NCBI RefSeq assembly: GCF_005885605.1
Contig: NZ_SZVP01000001.1
Location: forward strand, 434,001 to 498,000
Direction: 5' to 3'
Length of the DNA stretch: 64,000 nt
Source: Colwellia ponticola
GTDB taxonomy: Bacteria > Pseudomonadota > Gammaproteobacteria > Enterobacterales > Alteromonadaceae
Positions within the stretch are counted from its first letter, which is position 1. Each line of letters opens with the position of its first letter. This document shows, one piece after another, positions 34,156-42,221 of the stretch. The notes beneath the pieces were generated by a model, which worked only from the letters and a program-made list of their open reading frames with translations, ran no database searches and was not told the DNA's origin. Both the position numbers and the translations under genes were made by a program.

Positions 34156-35289
34156 CTAAATCTCAAAGTAATTACAAAATACCTTATACAGTTCCGTGCC
34201 CTGATTCACACTGGCAGAGGCAAAATGTAAAATAGGAATAACCTGCTGATCAAGTGATATATAATGAAGCGCTTCACCATCACCATAGTTATCCATACGT
34301 AGAATTCGCGCTAACGGCTCGCCAGCAGCTAAAGGCTTTCCAAAGTCTGCAAGGTAATCTATCATACCGCCCATCGGCGAATATAAGGCTTTATAGTCTT
34401 TTAGATAACACGCATATCGCGTCATTTTTTGTGGTTGATATTGCTTATTATCTATAACACCTTTAGCCTGTAAATAAGACAAAATACTCAAAGCATCTTG
34501 CTTCGCCACATCTAAATCTATTTGTTCTTGAGAGCCCAACTCAACGGTAAAGCTTTCCTTTTTAAAAGCTCCTTCGCCCATAGTAAAGTTTCGTCCTGAC
34601 GCTTGGTAGGCTTGCTGTAAGCTCCACCACGGACAAAAGGTTGCCTCATCCATTGCGCCACCAAAATCATTATCAATAAGTATAGTGTGTTCAATATCAA
34701 AATATTGAGCACTCGCTTGTGCATACTCTGGACAATATAAGTGTTTACTAGAAATAGGCCCCGTGTGTAAATCCAAGACAATATCTGCTTGGTGAGCAAG
34801 TCGCTGTAATTGGTAGGCGATACGCTGACCTGTAGTTATTCCCCAAATATTATGCGCTAACTTTTTATCTATCTGAGCAAGTAATAATTGTTGGAACTTA
34901 GTTTGTATCTCTTCAGCACTCGCATCCAAGTTTTGCTCAACAAAAGGCGCAATAATAGCTTGATCAAAGTGATACATTCTATTCCAGTTTTCACCCGTGA
35001 TAGGGTCAAAGCGTCCTAAGGTATACTCACCATTTTTATGATTACAACCAACAGGGTTAGCATAAGGGACTAAGGTAATATTGGCTTGTAAATTACACTG
35101 CTGTAGTAACTCAAGCAATTGAAAAATAACCGCGTTACCTTGTACTTCAGCGCCATGCATATTGGCCTGAATATATACAGTAGGCGCAGCGACATTATTA
35201 TCTGCTGTAAACGCATAAACGGGCACAGTGAGTTTAGCACCACTGGCCATTTCACCAACAAACATCACTTCTTTGGTAAACTTATTCAT
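34156..35289 (-). CDS. Succinylglutamate desuccinylase/aspartoacylase-family zinc hydrolase
   Basis: 377 residues of the M14-like AstE/AspA family, which cleave N-acyl amino acids using one zinc. Zinc ligands are visible in QANMHGAEVQGN (His45, Glu48) and in LDLHTGP (about 172-177); the likely catalytic glutamate is in TVELGSQEQ. The substrate is unknown. It is the last gene of a three-gene set behind a lysine riboswitch, after a DapD-like and a LysA-like gene, so a succinylated or acylated diaminopimelate/lysine-type compound is a reasonable guess. The LysA-like gene ends 43 nt upstream of its start. Confidence 0.82.
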   Translation of the reverse strand: MNKFTKEVMFVGEMASGAKLTVPVYAFTADNNVAAPTVYIQANMHGAEVQGNAVIFQLLELLQQCNLQANITLVPYANPVGCNHKNGEYTLGRFDPITGENWNRMYHFDQAIIAPFVEQNLDASAEEIQTKFQQLLLAQIDKKLAHNIWGITTGQRIAYQLQRLAHQADIVLDLHTGPISSKHLYCPEYAQASAQYFDIEHTILIDNDFGGAMDEATFCPWWSLQQAYQASGRNFTMGEGAFKKESFTVELGSQEQIDLDVAKQDALSILSYLQAKGVIDNKQYQPQKMTRYACYLKDYKALYSPMGGMIDYLADFGKPLAAGEPLARILRMDNYGDGEALHYISLDQQVIPILHFASASVNQGTELYKVFCNYFEI

Positions 35290-35331: not shown

Positions 35332-36576
35332 CTAGGCCATATAAGATGAGGCAGGTTGCGCCGCTCTCACTTGTGTTAATGTACCATTTTGGTAAACATA
35401 CTCAGCGGCTAATTCATGGCATAAGAAAAACGGCATGCTTTCAGTAAAGCCATAAGCACCACAATAGCCAAACACTAATTTTTCACCAATAGCAGTATCT
35501 TGTGGTAAGGACAAGTGTCCTAATTTATCCAAGCTAGTACATAAAGGGCCATGCAGATCAAAAGATTGCATAGCTTGTTGTTCAGCTGAAAAGTCTTTTC
35601 GTAATATTTGCACAGGAAAAGGTTGGTCGGTGATGGCTGGACGTATTAAATGATTGATACCCGCAGCCAACACTAACTGCTCTTGACCGTAATTAATTTT
35701 TCTATCAACCACAGGCACCACGTAGTAACCACACTCTGCTACAGCAAAACGCCCTAGCTCTAACCATAACTCCTTAACACCTGCTTTTGCTTTGATAATG
35801 GCTAAGTCTTCGATAATTTTAGACCAAGTCAATGCATGACCTTCGCCTACATAATCAATCCCTAAGCCACCACCTAAATCAAGTACCTCAAGTGTCATAC
35901 CAATGCTGCTAGCTAAATCCGTTAACGGCGTGATCATTTGAGACCATAATGAAAACATTTTTTCATTACTGAGCATATTTCCCCATTGAAAAATATGTAA
36001 ACCACAAACATCTAAAGCCGGATAGCTATCTAAATGAATATTCTGCCACTGGGCTACCGATAAGCCAAAAGGGGTTAAACTATTACCACCTAGTGGATTT
36101 TTCTCGCCTTCATCCCATTGCAGTTGCACTCTAAGTAGCACGGTTGGCTTGTTAGTAAGTGTTGGCGTTTCTTGCTCCTGCATCACTTCATTTAACCAAT
36201 TAAGTTGATTAATACTTTCTACCACAAAAGTATTGACGCCTTGCTTAACAAAAGCAGCAAGTTGTTTTTTTGATTTCGCTGGACCAGTATTTAATATGCG
36301 ATTAGGGTTTATACCTTGTGCCAACACTTGGTTTAACTCACCAGTGCTGGCAACATCAAAATTAAAACCTTCGCTATCAAGCGTTTGAATTATTTTAGAC
36401 AGTGGGTTCGCTTTAACAGCAAACCACAATTTAATAACGTCTTGTTGCTGTAAAGTCGCTAAATGGCTTTTAAGTGCATCAAGTTGATAAACATAATAGC
36501 CGTGTTCATCTTCTGGTGACTTATGGGTAAGTAAGGCATGTTCAATACTGGTGTCAAACCAAGTAGATTTAGTCAT
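35332..36576 (-). CDS. LysA-like fold-type III PLP-dependent amino acid decarboxylase
   Basis: 414 residues of the diaminopimelate/ornithine decarboxylase superfamily: alanine-racemase-like barrel plus C-terminal beta domain. The PLP lysine is Lys55 in WFAVKANPL. The phosphate-binding glycine loop is DLGGGLGIDY, the usual EPGR motif is ELGR, and the active-site Cys from the second subunit is in HGPLCTSLDKLG. It is close to LysA, but the altered EPGR motif leaves open another substrate (for example a carboxy-polyamine or modified DAP). Transcribed with the aspartoacylase-like gene and behind the lysine-riboswitch-controlled dapD-like gene. Confidence 0.82.
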   Translation of the reverse strand: MTKSTWFDTSIEHALLTHKSPEDEHGYYVYQLDALKSHLATLQQQDVIKLWFAVKANPLSKIIQTLDSEGFNFDVASTGELNQVLAQGINPNRILNTGPAKSKKQLAAFVKQGVNTFVVESINQLNWLNEVMQEQETPTLTNKPTVLLRVQLQWDEGEKNPLGGNSLTPFGLSVAQWQNIHLDSYPALDVCGLHIFQWGNMLSNEKMFSLWSQMITPLTDLASSIGMTLEVLDLGGGLGIDYVGEGHALTWSKIIEDLAIIKAKAGVKELWLELGRFAVAECGYYVVPVVDRKINYGQEQLVLAAGINHLIRPAITDQPFPVQILRKDFSAEQQAMQSFDLHGPLCTSLDKLGHLSLPQDTAIGEKLVFGYCGAYGFTESMPFFLCHELAAEYVYQNGTLTQVRAAQPASSYMA

Positions 36577-36777: not shown

Positions 36778-37527
36778 TTATCTTAAAATTGATTCTAATT
36801 CTAGTGAAGCATCACTTTTCTCATCGCGATATTTAACGATAAGTGCACAGGCCATACTTAACCCTTGTGCTTCTGCCCACTCACCTTTAACTGGGCGGGT
36901 ACCAGGTACTACAACAGCACGTTCTGGAATTTCTGCGCCTTTTTCACGCATCACTTGATTGACACAATCATAAACAGGTACTGATTTAGACAGTGTTACG
37001 CCCGGTGCTAATACAGCGCCTTTTTTAACGACTATGCCTTCAACAATAACAACACCTGCACTTAAAAAGGCGTCGTCTTCAATAATTACTGGGCTTGCAC
37101 CAACCGGCTCTAATACGCCACCAATTTGAACAGCCGCTGACACATGGACATTTTTACCTACTTGAGCACACGATCCAATTAAAGCATGGCTATCAACCAT
37201 AGTGCCGCTATCAACAAAAGCACCTACATTAATATAAGCTGGCGGCATAATAATAACGCCTTTAGCAACGTAAGCACCTGCACGTACTGATGAGCCACCA
37301 GGGACTAAGCGAACACCATCTTCTGCTGAAAATTGACGAGCAGGTAGGTTATGCTTATCAACAAAGCCTTGATAGTTACCCTCAAAAGCAATATTTTCGC
37401 CCGCTTTAAAAGCAGCTAAAATACCTTGCTTTACTTCGATATTGGCATGCCAGTTACCGGCATCATCTTGGTTTGCCGCTCGTAAACTACCTGATTCTAA
37501 CTGCGCTAATACATCTTGCCAATTCAT
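36778..37527 (-). CDS. dapD: Tetrahydrodipicolinate N-succinyltransferase (DapD-like)
   Basis: Succinyl-CoA-dependent enzyme of the succinylase route to meso-DAP and lysine. 249 residues, shorter than the 274-residue E. coli-type DapD, with a shortened N-terminal helical domain. The left-handed beta-helix is plain: YINVGAFVDSGTMVDSHALIG, SCAQVGKNVHVSAAVQIGGVLEP and IIEDDAFLSAGVVIVEGIVV. Differences from the classical protein (VDSHALIG for VDTWATVG, a rewritten C-terminal part) suggest a divergent or second DapD. GGAG lies seven bases before the ATG. A lysine riboswitch occupies its leader, giving strong contextual support for a lysine-pathway role. Confidence 0.85.
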   Translation of the reverse strand: MNWQDVLAQLESGSLRAANQDDAGNWHANIEVKQGILAAFKAGENIAFEGNYQGFVDKHNLPARQFSAEDGVRLVPGGSSVRAGAYVAKGVIIMPPAYINVGAFVDSGTMVDSHALIGSCAQVGKNVHVSAAVQIGGVLEPVGASPVIIEDDAFLSAGVVIVEGIVVKKGAVLAPGVTLSKSVPVYDCVNQVMREKGAEIPERAVVVPGTRPVKGEWAEAQGLSMACALIVKYRDEKSDASLELESILR

Positions 37528-37696
37528 TTATTACTCCGCTTATTCTGATAAAAATTCGATAAAAAATGTGTATAAAGCTTTATTAACAGGCATATAAACA
37601 CCGTCAAGAAAATTAAATACATGAGAGAGAAGGTACTGGACGTTAACAATGAAGAGCGAAATACCAGAGCAACAAGCATTAGGCTAATTATGCAAA

Positions 37697-37944
37697 GACC
37701 AGAAGCTCCCCACTTAAATAACCCATAGGGTTATTGAATCAAGTGACAGTTGTCGGGATTCAGCCCACTATTTTATTTATTGATTAAACAAAATAAACAA
37801 CCGATAAGCGACTAATCAAATAGTCGATTACCTCGGCGTTAATCCCCCTCATTAACATCTACAGATTTTGAACTCTGTTTTTTTCTTCTTAAAAATACAA
37901 GAAAAAACGATGATAATTACCTGGTTAACGCTCCTCTTCTGGCC
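37697..37944 (-). ncRNA. Lysine riboswitch (L-box) aptamer
   Basis: Read on the minus strand from 37944. The P1 stem GGCCAGAAG (37944-37936) pairs with CTTCTGGTC (37705-37697), closing the element. Conserved L-box blocks follow in the right order: AGAGGAGCG directly after P1, GAGGGG and ACGCCGAGG in the middle, ATCGG, GGGCTGAATCCCGACAA, then CTGTCACTT facing AAGTGGGGAGC around an ATAACCC/GGGTTAT hairpin, as in the CTGTCA...GGAGGGC block of known lysine riboswitches. It controls the downstream dapD-like gene (ATG 169 nt past P1). The expression platform was not resolved: no strong intrinsic terminator is visible in 37528-37696. Confidence 0.85.
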
Positions 37945-38156
37945 CTATTAAAATTTAGCAGTGATTAACTAGTCATATCGATGTAGCCATGACATAACTG
38001 CACTGACTAAATGTGAATTAGGGACGGGCAGTATTTAAGCATTTTTTTTGCTTAGGTACAATTATCTTACAAAAAATTAACGCTATTCCCTTATATTTAT
38101 TTACCGTAGAATATAACTATTATTATTTTCCTACTTATTATCTTATTTGTTGCCTT

Positions 38157-39224: not shown

Positions 39225-39248
39225 TCTCTGACTATTTCATTGAGTACC

Positions 39249-40889
39249 ATGACACAAAAAACCAGCACCATGTCATTACATCGCCTGTTAACGCTAAGCC
39301 TTTTAGCGTTAAACTCTCTAATATTACTTACTGCCTCAGTCAGTATTATTAATATGGTCGATGAAAAAAACAATGCAAATATTATCAGTGAAACTCATAC
39401 TTGGGCCAATGTCTTAGCAAAAAACAGCCGTCATTTTATCAACAGTAGTGACGCTAATAATCAACATAAATTAAAAAATGAACTTAGAAAATCAATTACC
39501 ACTGGGCTAATTAATCGTGTCCATATTTATCGCTTGAATGAGGATGGCGCGATTGAATATTTCAGTAGCTATAATAAAAATCATACCTTTCCAGCTATTG
39601 GCGATAAAATCGGAAAAATATCGCAATTACGTACCGTCCACTTCGAAGAAGATTATATTGAGCTTATTGTCGAAATTACTGATGATGAGCGACTACTAGG
39701 TTACTTATTCATTCAATCTAGTTTGCTTGAAAAGCAGGCTTTTATTAAGCAATTAATCTATATTGCGCTGGCTTTCTTGCTCTTTACTAACCTAGTTGTC
39801 TTCGCGGTTTCAACATGGTTATTTAATAAAATCACTCAACCTATGGCTACGTTAATTGATGACGTAGAACAAATATCTCAAAGTAAAAATTATCAGCTAG
39901 AGTTAGCAAGTCAGCCTTATAAAGAGCTCGATATTCTCGCTAAAAACATTAATATTTTATTACGTCGTACCCATAAATACATTGATAAGATAATAGATGA
40001 ACAGCAATATTCTGTCTTTCAAAAGCAAGCCTTAGAACATAGGCTAAATACACGAACAGAGGCATTAAAAGAATCTAATCAAGAGTTACTTTCAACCCTA
40101 GAAAAATTACATGAATTTCAAGGGCAACTAGTTGAAACTGAAAAAATGGCATCGTTAGGTGATATGGTTGCCGGCATAGCACATGAAATCAATACACCTA
40201 TTGGTTTAGGGGTTACTGCGTCAAGCCTATTAGCAGATAGGTTACACGAGATTAAATTTGCCTTTGAAAATAAAACATTGAAATCAAGTCAGTTAAAAAA
40301 GTTTTTAATGGATGGTGATGAAAATGCGTTAATAATACTTAGAAACCTCGAGCGCGCAGCAAATTTAATATCAAGCTTTAAAAAAGTAGCGGTTGATCAA
40401 TCAAGCGCCGAATCACGTACCTTTAATGTCAATACCTTAATCAATGAAGTGCTATTAACACTCTCAACAAAAATAAGAACAGCCAAAATTGATATTTTGA
40501 TAAACTGCCCTGACGCCTTGTATATCAACAGTAAGCCTGGTGCGATAAATCAAATATTGATCAACCTGATCCTTAACTCAATTCACCATGCCTTTGATGG
40601 GATAGATAATGGTAAAGTTACCATTACTATCGCTATATTAGCTGGTCAATTACATATTAATTATAAGGATAATGGTACAGGTATTGAGGAGTCTATGCGC
40701 TCGAAGATTTTCGAGCCTTTTACAACCACCAAACGAGGCAGCGGCGGTAGCGGTTTAGGCATGCATTTAGTCTATAATTTAGTCACGCAAGCACTCGATG
40801 GCTATATTACTGTTGAAGAAGCACCGACTCATGGCGTAAGCTTTGATATTACTTTTCCAGTAGCAATACCTGCTACTGAAGAAAAATAA
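39249..40889 (+). CDS. Membrane sensor histidine kinase
   Basis: About 546 residues from the ATG at 39249; a TTG at 39240 and an ATG at 39270 are alternatives and none has a clear Shine-Dalgarno. Two membrane segments (about 15-38 and 170-195) flank a periplasmic sensor region of about 130 residues. A HAMP-like linker, a coiled coil, and a HisKA/HATPase core of the HPK4 type follow (phospho-His in VAGIAHEINTPIG; N box NLILNSIHHAFDG; G boxes KDNGTGIEE and GSGGSGLGMHLV). There is no receiver or Hpt domain. arcA lies 144 nt downstream and an Hpt gene just beyond, but pairing is unproven. Confidence 0.87.
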   Translation: MTQKTSTMSLHRLLTLSLLALNSLILLTASVSIINMVDEKNNANIISETHTWANVLAKNSRHFINSSDANNQHKLKNELRKSITTGLINRVHIYRLNEDGAIEYFSSYNKNHTFPAIGDKIGKISQLRTVHFEEDYIELIVEITDDERLLGYLFIQSSLLEKQAFIKQLIYIALAFLLFTNLVVFAVSTWLFNKITQPMATLIDDVEQISQSKNYQLELASQPYKELDILAKNINILLRRTHKYIDKIIDEQQYSVFQKQALEHRLNTRTEALKESNQELLSTLEKLHEFQGQLVETEKMASLGDMVAGIAHEINTPIGLGVTASSLLADRLHEIKFAFENKTLKSSQLKKFLMDGDENALIILRNLERAANLISSFKKVAVDQSSAESRTFNVNTLINEVLLTLSTKIRTAKIDILINCPDALYINSKPGAINQILINLILNSIHHAFDGIDNGKVTITIAILAGQLHINYKDNGTGIEESMRSKIFEPFTTTKRGSGGSGLGMHLVYNLVTQALDGYITVEEAPTHGVSFDITFPVAIPATEEK

Positions 40890-40941
40890 TAACCTTCAAT
40901 AATTATTTTTTATTGCCTATTAACTAAAAATAACTAAAATA

Positions 40942-40981
40942 GTTAAATAATTGTAAATATATTGCGTATATCATTTACAAT
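40942..40981. promoter_or_regulatory. Candidate operator upstream of arcA
   Basis: ATTGTAAAT (40950-40958) and ATTTACAAT (40973-40981) form a perfect inverted repeat with 14 bases between. Overlapping it, GTTAAATAATTGTAA (40942-40956) agrees at 12 of 15 positions with the ArcA box consensus GTTAATTAAATGTTA, suggesting autoregulation. The region is AT-rich, so chance matching is a real possibility. Confidence 0.3.
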
Positions 40982-41033
40982 AACGACATCATAATAATCG
41001 TAATACTCATTTAAATCGTAGGTACACCAGAAT

Positions 41034-41735
41034 ATGCAGACTTATCAAATTTTAGTTGTTGAAGATGAAGACGTAACACGCTTTAACTTACGTAATTTAT
41101 TTGAAGCCGAAGGTTATATTGTTCATGAAGCAATTGATGGCAATAGCATGGCTGAACAACTAAGAAAAAACACCATCAACTTGATTATTATGGATATCAA
41201 TTTACCGGGTAAAAATGGCTTATTGCTAGCTCGCGAGTTAACCGCGAATAAAGACATGGGCTTAATTTTTCTTACTGGTCGAGATAGTGATATTGATAAG
41301 GTATTAGGACTAGAAATAGGTGCAGATGACTATTTAACTAAGCCATTTAATCCTCGAGAGTTAACCATTAGGGCGCGCAATATATTAAGTCGCATTGGTC
41401 AAAAAACTACAGTGCTAGGTCAAAGTATAATAACCTTTAATCAATGGACTCTCGATAATAATGCTCGTCAAATGACAAGCCCTATGGGTGAAGTTATTGC
41501 TATTCCTCGCGGCGAATATCGCGCATTAAGCTTACTAATACAAAATGCGGGTAAAATAATATCTCGCCAAGACCTTATTAAAGAAATGACCGGTAGAGAG
41601 TTACGCGCTAATGACCGTACTGTAGATGTAACAATTAGGCGTTTACGTAAACACTTTGAGTCAAGCCCAAGCACGCCTGAGCTTATTAATACTATTCATG
41701 GTGAAGGCTATCGTTTCGTTGGCGTTTTAGACTGA
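41034..41735 (+). CDS. arcA: Aerobic respiration control response regulator ArcA
   Basis: OmpR-family response regulator that governs the switch between aerobic and anaerobic metabolism. 233 residues against 238 in E. coli. The receiver domain (1-120) has phospho-acceptor Asp54 in [19 protein letters not shown], nearly identical to E. coli ArcA, along with FLTGRD and [21 protein letters not shown]. The winged-helix domain ends [23 protein letters not shown] and [11 protein letters not shown], again ArcA-specific. The gene is convergent with a free-standing Hpt gene; no ArcB-type tripartite kinase is present in the window. Confidence 0.95.
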
Positions 41736-41787
41736 TACCAAACCAATTAATTTGCCTAAGTTAATCTCATTAACACAATAAAACTGA

Positions 41788-41827
41788 GGATAAGCGCTCT
41801 TTAAATGCACTATTTACAGGCTTATCC
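41788..41827. terminator. Possible hairpin between convergent arcA and hptA
   Basis: GGATAAGC (41788-41795) and GCTTATCC (41820-41827) are perfectly complementary across 24 bases. The loop is long and there is no U-run, so this is only a weak terminator candidate. Confidence 0.3.
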
Positions 41828-41864
41828 TAAGATTTACAAGCTATCACTATTATCCAAACTCAGC

Positions 41865-42221
41865 CTACTTATTTTCTAGCCAAGTTTTAAAAGCAAGTAT
41901 TGCTTGCTCATTCGATATAATCACCTCATTTAACAGCTGCGTTTTTTTCTCTTTTGACGCTTCAGTTTTTTCTAATAATTGTAATTGTCCATGCAATTGA
42001 CGCATACCAACACTGGCTGTTGCACCTTTCATTTTATGACAATGTGCTTGCCACTGAGCTGATGAATCATTAAGCAGCGCATTTTCAATATCGTTAAGGT
42101 ATATTTCAACTTGCTGACAATATAAAGTAAACATCTGCTCAACAATATGCTTACCTAAGCTCTCTATATAACTGTCAAGTAACACCAAATCTAAGTCACT
42201 ATTTACTTGCTTGGTTCCCAC
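41865..42221 (-). CDS. hptA: Free-standing histidine phosphotransfer (Hpt) protein, HptA-like
   Basis: 118 residues, essentially one four-helix Hpt domain. The phosphorylatable His62 is in HCHKMKGATASVG, with the HxxKG core. No kinase or receiver domain. In Shewanella a separate HptA passes phosphate from the kinase ArcS to ArcA because an ArcB-type Hpt domain is missing. The position of this gene directly opposite arcA makes the same role likely here, though inferred from context. Confidence 0.75.
   Translation of the reverse strand: MGTKQVNSDLDLVLLDSYIESLGKHIVEQMFTLYCQQVEIYLNDIENALLNDSSAQWQAHCHKMKGATASVGMRQLHGQLQLLEKTEASKEKKTQLLNEVIISNEQAILAFKTWLENK

Follow-up and report, generated by a model that had tools for sequence, protein, structure and literature searches.

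The closest described relatives of the system considered here are the lysine riboswitches (L-box, Rfam family RF00168), the fold-III PLP decarboxylases and the AstE/aspartoacylase deacylases. The riboswitch ahead of lysC in E. coli is gammaproteobacterial and acts on ribosome access (PMC5584792). A lysine riboswitch preceding dapD has also been reported for Colwellia psychrerythraea, and for Pseudoalteromonas one that heads dapA-dapD-lysA-hypothetical-hypothetical (PMC5584792); the link between riboswitch and dapD in Colwellia is thus already in print. In the accessible part of that report dapD and lysA are handled as ordinary pathway genes, and neither a duplicate set nor a changed LysA is mentioned. 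A K-turn in the P2 arm is common in lysine riboswitches and is not defining; the T. maritima riboswitch is an exception which lacks the K-turn and bends another way (PMC4316175). Among the decarboxylases, the diaminopimelate decarboxylase (DAPDC) of T. maritima recognises the distal amine of its substrate through Glu315 and the distal carboxylate through Arg249 and Arg285. Its E315T variant has lost most DAP activity and mainly uses 2-aminopimelate, which has no distal amine (PMC8277567). SbnH, FigC and BtrK take L-amino acids in citryl- or carrier-bound form as substrates for decarboxylation (PMC7857480). Bacteria with meso-DAP in their walls face a conflict, in that lysine should repress lysine synthesis yet the wall needs meso-DAP.

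We analysed a 64,000-nucleotide stretch of the Colwellia ponticola genome (the window), in which, unlike the E. coli case, a lysine riboswitch heads the genes dapD2-lysA2-astE2. The operon is very probably the same as, or a sister arrangement of, the published Colwellia and Pseudoalteromonas ones (PMC5584792).

A lysine riboswitch with a rebuilt P2 arm

The aptamer and its parts are as follows.

37695..37946, minus strand: lysine riboswitch aptamer (RF00168), from the full cmscan model and covariation on 12 leaders
37936..37942, minus strand: P1 5′ strand CCAGAAG, partner 37705-37699, invariant in 12/12
37699..37705, minus strand: P1 3′ strand CTTCTGG, pairing with the P1 5′ strand
37882..37907, minus strand: extra A+T-rich hairpin of the P2 arm (three-way junction), from the predicted fold
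37861..37878, minus strand: end hairpin of P2, with a loop (TTCAAA) able to pair with that of P3, from loop complementarity
37815..37820, minus strand: P3 loop TTTGAT, kissing partner of the P2 loop, kept in 12/12

Positions 37946-37695 of the minus strand match RF00168 over the whole model (1-182 of 182) with 67.3 bits and E 2e-15 (cmscan, Rfam). The gathering score of the family is 30, and RF00168 is the sole Rfam family above threshold in the whole 64 kb. The initial annotation had called a lysine riboswitch at 37697..37944 and named this covariance model as the check; the call is borne out, its coordinates are correct to within 2 bases and the L-box blocks it quoted are all found on the minus strand. 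The aptamer has the five-helix junction, closed P1 and conserved core of the L-box family, with which it shares the full model, the P1-P5 layout, the core blocks, the P2-P3 kissing loops and the lysine genes downstream. Twelve leaders were aligned, the window and 11 relatives with the riboswitch directly before dapD2. With a fold taken from one member (L063), and thus biased towards it, 98.2% of 1148 cells are paired and 11 pairs are altered on both sides; none of 500 shuffles scored as high on any of five measures. The window's score lies near the bottom of the range of its relatives (60-120 bits), which is what a chance match has in its favour, but the E value, the covariation and the conserved position ahead of the same gene set refute chance for practical purposes. 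The riboswitch is real and of a known kind, with a P2 arm specific to its lineage. Judged by sequence, the RNA presumably binds L-lysine and alters expression.

P1 (CCAGAAG/CTTCTGG) can be lengthened by a few more pairs. It is invariant in all 12 leaders, so a compensatory-change test on P1 is uninformative within this set. The P2 arm had been described as long and A+T-rich, correctly: 92 nt separate the AGAGG-GC and GCCGA blocks. We compared 38 lysine aptamer matches, a few of them duplicated from one genome. A single hairpin is predicted in 25 of these collected aptamers, whose arm is 61-64 nt long; the window and 12 others (Colwellia and one Litorilituus) have two such hairpins and an arm of 78-98 nt. 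A single-hairpin arm (locus L016) has, judged by eye, a K-turn-like three-base bulge followed by GA/GA. For the window and the 12 other aptamers a three-way junction is predicted at the place of this bulge, and the helix of the extra hairpin carries 2 pairs altered on both sides among the 12 leaders. The P2 loop reads ATCAAA in 11/12 leaders and TTCAAA in the window; it is complementary to the P3 loop at 6 bases in the 11, and at 5/6 in the window. Replacement of the K-turn is known in principle, since the T. maritima riboswitch lacks one (PMC4316175). The RNA would be a natural case in which the P2 arm has been rebuilt as a three-way junction with the loop-loop contact retained.

We also note two relatives with an enlarged P4 arm upstream of dapD2 (L051:5396-5826 and L052:5338-5824). 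They have about 200 (L051) and 250 (L052) extra nt relative to the window, falling between the ATCGG and CTGTCA blocks, and their Rfam matches (55.1 and 48.8 bits) stop inside the extra sequence.

Leader and mode of control

The elements around the aptamer are as follows.

38033..38061, minus strand: putative promoter-like site TTGTAC-17-TTAAAT upstream of the aptamer
37651..37657, minus strand: GCTCTTC, complementary to the P1 5′ strand, a candidate P1 competitor, invariant in 12/12
37626..37632, minus strand: anti-Shine-Dalgarno (anti-SD) position, CTCCGC in most relatives and an imperfect CTTCTCT in the window, from alignment and folding
37534..37539, minus strand: Shine-Dalgarno (SD) sequence GCGGAG of dapD2, from the leader alignment

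In the window the promoter-like site begins 116 nt ahead of GGGCCAGAAG; in 7/11 relatives this distance is 85-86 nt. The pattern has no match at that place in the remaining 4, and a consensus promoter scan did not list the site. From 37697 to the dapD2 start at 37527 there are 169 nt, as the initial annotation stated. Control over this distance had been called unusual there; the spacer carries conserved elements in the 12 aligned leaders and so looks like an expression platform rather than an odd gap. Besides the GCTCTTC, the spacer of all 12 has a GCCC, which reads GTCC in the window and can pair with a GGGC preceding P1. Both elements hardly vary and therefore yield no covariation. The SD is GCGGAG in 11/12 leaders and GTGGAG in one. 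The helix formed by SD and anti-SD is paired in 84.5% of cells and has a single two-sided change, in L056, and the combined structure of P1 with this helix does not stand above shuffles, 70/500 of which reach the observed values. Partition-function folding leaves the SD largely paired in most leaders whether P1 or its competitor is forced. The window's two forced states differ in how far the SD is unpaired (0.21 vs 0.50), and L056 shows a smaller difference; folding gave no clear switch in most of the 12 leaders.

A simple scan lists no terminator on the minus strand between aptamer and dapD2, in agreement with the earlier reading. Since no terminator is listed and a conserved anti-SD lies opposite the dapD2 ribosome site, repression of translation, with the anti-SD covering that site, is likely; the switching step itself is conjectural. 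The suggestion that control acts on translation is thus probable; that this would be unusual does not stand, as the E. coli lysC riboswitch is described as acting in this way (PMC5584792).

A second set of lysine genes

36778..37527, minus strand: dapD2, short tetrahydrodipicolinate N-acyl(succinyl)transferase, 249 aa (NF008808)
35332..36576, minus strand: lysA2, fold-III PLP decarboxylase, proposed N-acyl-diaminopimelate decarboxylase, 414 aa (profiles, Thr347)
34156..35289, minus strand: astE2, AstE/AspA-family deacylase, 377 aa (PF24827)

DapD2 scores 299.7 bits against NF008808, above the cut-off of 204, and misses the longer TIGR00965 model (193 vs a cut-off of 375). A preference for succinyl-CoA over acetyl-CoA is putative and comes from the model name. 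AstE2 is a member of PF24827 (99.3 against a cut-off of 25) and lies outside the DapE family (TIGR01246). Its solved relatives 3lwu and 3fmc (415 and 407 bits) carry generic or putative names. The HGAE, DLHTGP and T-x-E motifs are present in 96/106 AstE2-type frames. AstE2 thus resembles the AstE/aspartoacylase family in score and, for most frames, in motifs; it differs in that its genes stand under lysine riboswitches with lysC or lysA2, and its substrate is putative. The initial annotation had linked the three-gene cluster to lysine, which stands, but the account was incomplete: the third gene, unnamed there, is this deacylase.

Standard LysA (485 bits, cut-off 298), DapD (467 bits, cut-off 375) and DapE (527 bits, cut-off 362) are encoded elsewhere in the same genome; the DapE search gave two matches, each on another contig. 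Because the standard dapD, dapE and lysA lie elsewhere, the dapD2-lysA2-astE2 operon is a second, auxiliary lysine set. As in E. coli, lysC too is preceded by a lysine riboswitch in this genome. It is the only other one (85.5 bits), and this lysC encodes a lysine-sensitive aspartokinase (NF006570, 630 bits, above 455).

LysA2 differs from canonical LysA

By the tests applied here, the gene described as lysA-like does not encode a LysA. LysA2 scores 178.0 bits with TIGR01048, under its cut-off of 297.9, and a Thr replaces the Glu that binds the amine. It reaches 181 bits with the exosortase-associated decarboxylase model (cut-off 478) and is under every NCBIfam cut-off. A profile of 16 LysA2 sequences run against the PDB scored SbnH at 188, BtrK at 161 and the best DAPDC at 154 bits; a single LysA2 sequence gave SbnH 114, the DAPDC 4xg1 102 and BtrK 97 bits. 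The standard LysA of the same genome finds DAPDCs first (484 bits), followed by BtrK (132) and SbnH (87). The group comprising SbnH (6knh), BtrK (2j66) and FigC (7kh2) consists of decarboxylases of acylated amino acids, and SbnH and BtrK, the top profile scores, have CTxxD instead of CE and an FLxH end motif in common with LysA2. Unlike them, LysA2 retains the RPA-motif arginine of DAPDCs; in aligned SbnH an arginine sits one place earlier, and BtrK is without the motif. In a 29-row tree LysA2 groups with BtrK and the exosortase-type decarboxylases (96/92), a grouping which joins long branches and in which BtrK represents SbnH, FigC and BtrK.

We collected 68 distinct LysA2 sequences, one of them cut before sites 312-347; they were separated from canonical LysA by score alone and not by site 347. 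At this site Thr is found in 67/67 LysA2 with letters there and Glu in 41/41 canonical LysA. Site 316 is Thr in LysA2 vs Tyr in canonical LysA. Both groups retain the two distal-carboxylate arginines (in LysA2, Arg312 in 67/67 and Arg276 in 68/68). By motif alignment Thr347 corresponds to T. maritima position 315, and both arginines likewise have their T. maritima equivalents. An AlphaFold model of LysA2 (mean pLDDT 84.6) gave a tie in fold comparison, with Z of 37.8 for DAPDC, 37.3 for SbnH and 37.1 for BtrK. The expected substrate thus has a distal carboxylate and lacks the free distal amine; as the operon also encodes a deacylase and an acyltransferase that would block exactly this amine, N-acyl-DAP is the candidate.

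Distribution and variants of the locus

Genome contigs were scanned for DapD2 and the best 80 loci taken, of which 61 are gammaproteobacterial and 19 from Bacteroidota. LysA2 follows DapD2 in 61/61 of the former (two cut by a contig end), and AstE2 comes next in 59/61, both exceptions stopping at a contig edge. Upstream of dapD2 in these 61 loci we find dapA (36), lysC-dapA (7) or neither (18); lysC and dapA labels were verified on examples with NCBIfam, and dapB was named by eye. A riboswitch is present in 9/9 dapA-type and 2/2 lysC-type loci tested. Among the 18 loci with neither gene it lies directly before dapD2 in 15/17 tested (6 of the 15 by pattern and alignment only; the 18th locus is L108), with no riboswitch upstream of dapD2 in L062 and L065. 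None was seen in L017, L018 and L020-L025, where the upstream sequence (<=1.5 kb) falls short of the lysC-type riboswitch position, nor in L013, L027 and L229, a longer stretch of the genome of L027. We note that L013, L062 and L065 show neither riboswitch nor dapA upstream and retain dapD2-lysA2. The window arrangement is best read as a shortened riboswitch-lysC-dapA-dapD2-lysA2-astE2.

In the Bacteroidota loci, mostly from Balneolaceae, lysC-dapB-dapA directly precedes DapD2 in 14/19. The available flanks contain no LysA2 or AstE2, and there was no riboswitch in the 2 loci tested. DapD2 of these loci (L096-L121) is 70-74% identical to that of the window, so transfer between the phyla is likely.

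DapD2-type matches at >=70% identity occur in 16 of 295 genomes of the order and AstE2 (E <=1e-40) in 48. LysA2 (E <=1e-42) was found in 4 of 369 genomes of the class, the window's own and three of family f76. The latter genomes are 2.0-2.1 Mb in size, and have the order riboswitch-lysC-dapB-dapA-dapD2-lysA2, with no AstE2 in the stretch in any of the three. A TIGR01246 DapE was found in 0/3 and a CE-type LysA in 3/3. An aspartate-type aminotransferase gene, under the cut-offs of its models, lies beside the operon in L235 and L237, and asd adjoins it in L236. A second lysine riboswitch was observed in L235 (470-649), where this aminotransferase gene begins.

AstE2 also has a distribution of its own. 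The order riboswitch-lysC-astE2, with no DapD2 or LysA2 there, was found in 5/5 examined loci of genus g19 (family f6), which we take to be Shewanella, and in L224; 18 genomes of this genus are among the 48 with AstE2. In L217 (G072) astE2 stands alone beside an RsmC-like methyltransferase gene that also flanks the window operon. Eight further astE2 loci (41-50% identity) have no lysine gene nearby, and the riboswitch was absent at 7/7 tested. All 15 searched genomes with AstE2 and without the trio have standard LysA and DapE.

LysA above cut-off is present in 28/29 trio or Bacteroidota genomes searched and missing in MAG G096; two of the 29 are duplicates of other entries. DapE is above cut-off in 35/42 genomes searched; the 7 others are G029 and 6 Bacteroidota. 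MAG G029 (92% complete, 5% contaminated) has dapB-dapD2-lysA2-astE2 at L229:1002-4857; searches of it found neither a standard DapD nor a standard DapE.

A possible route to lysine around meso-DAP

The reading we favour overall, with a probability of about one half, is a riboswitch-controlled operon whose LysA2 and AstE2 bypass meso-DAP. DapD2 would succinylate tetrahydrodipicolinate, and an aminotransferase would produce N-succinyl-L,L-diaminopimelate. LysA2 would then decarboxylate the free-amine end of this compound to N2-succinyl-L-lysine, from which AstE2 would strip the succinyl group to give L-lysine; the acyl group and the stereochemistry in this scheme are putative. Such a branch would bypass DapE, DapF, LysA and meso-DAP. 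When lysine is plentiful, the riboswitch would lower the auxiliary, lysine-dedicated operon, most likely via the anti-SD over the dapD2 ribosome site, and lysine could shut the branch without starving cell-wall synthesis of meso-DAP. For the broader proposition, a bacterial lysine route which avoids meso-DAP, is under riboswitch control and has its repression insulated from peptidoglycan synthesis, we would offer a shade less than even odds. The bypass is favoured because LysA2 has Thr in place of the amine-binding Glu and keeps the distal-carboxylate arginines, because profile and tree set it beside SbnH or BtrK, because the set of relatives begins with dapA or with lysC and dapA, and because LysA2 follows DapD2 in 61/61 trio loci and in the 3 f76 genomes. 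It is weakened because AstE2 occurs without LysA2, and LysA2 without a nearby AstE2 (3 f76 genomes), and because 28/29 genomes keep a LysA above cut-off; no complete genome shows LysA2 working alone. The long branches of the tree, the single-sequence ranking of 4xg1 above BtrK, the tie in fold comparison and the shuffle result for the SD/anti-SD structure also count against it.

The same observations bear on a possible though less probable explanation, namely that the three proteins are isozymes, regulated by lysine, within the ordinary succinylase pathway. DapD2 would be a second DapD, AstE2 a non-homologous second succinyl-DAP desuccinylase and LysA2 a divergent meso-DAP decarboxylase, and the riboswitch would merely add a lysine-responsive portion of flux. 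The tie in fold comparison, which fails to separate LysA2 from DAPDCs, agrees with this. So does the pairing of astE2 with lysC under a lysine riboswitch, with no DapD2 or LysA2 there, in genomes that retain standard LysA and DapE; this pairing ties AstE2 independently to the lysine regulon, and a DapE-like role fits equally. G029, in which no standard DapD or DapE was found, likewise fits AstE2 as a substitute for DapE. Against isozymes stands LysA2 itself, which by profile is closer to SbnH and BtrK than to DAPDC and has Thr347 in 67/67 against Glu in 41/41 canonical LysA; with this substitution the T. maritima enzyme loses most activity on DAP (PMC8277567). That LysA2 groups with decarboxylases of secondary metabolism could instead suggest that the operon makes something else (an osmolyte, a siderophore part or a modified lysine) with lysine only as precursor. 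This is improbable given that in relatives a lysine riboswitch heads the set, whose first genes are dapA, lysC-dapA or lysC-dapB-dapA. We regard as slightly more improbable still that LysA2 decarboxylates free L,L-DAP at its L-centre after desuccinylation by AstE2, skipping DapF only. The use of L-amino acid derivatives by SbnH, FigC and BtrK (PMC7857480) and the presence of AstE2 in the operon would suit such a reaction, but L,L-DAP keeps a free distal amine and LysA2 has lost the Glu for that amine.

Were the meso-DAP bypass correct, a lysine-repressed branch leaving the pathway before meso-DAP would ease the conflict between lysine repression and the needs of the wall. LysA2 would represent a new enzyme activity (N-acyl-DAP decarboxylase), and some of the genes labelled lysA in databases would be mislabelled. 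Such an activity was not found in print in the literature searched, covered in part by title and the start of the abstract. The searches returned nothing joining succinyl-L-lysine, diaminopimelate and decarboxylase, and nothing joining succinylglutamate desuccinylase, lysine biosynthesis and riboswitch.

Two minor observations concern other elements. A c-di-GMP-I riboswitch (76.3 bits) is present at L216:450-537. In the window, a sensor kinase, ArcA (NF008378, 379 bits, cut-off 334) and a small Hpt-like protein adjoin one another at 39240-42221, a trio which presumably resembles an ArcS/HptA/ArcA-like system.
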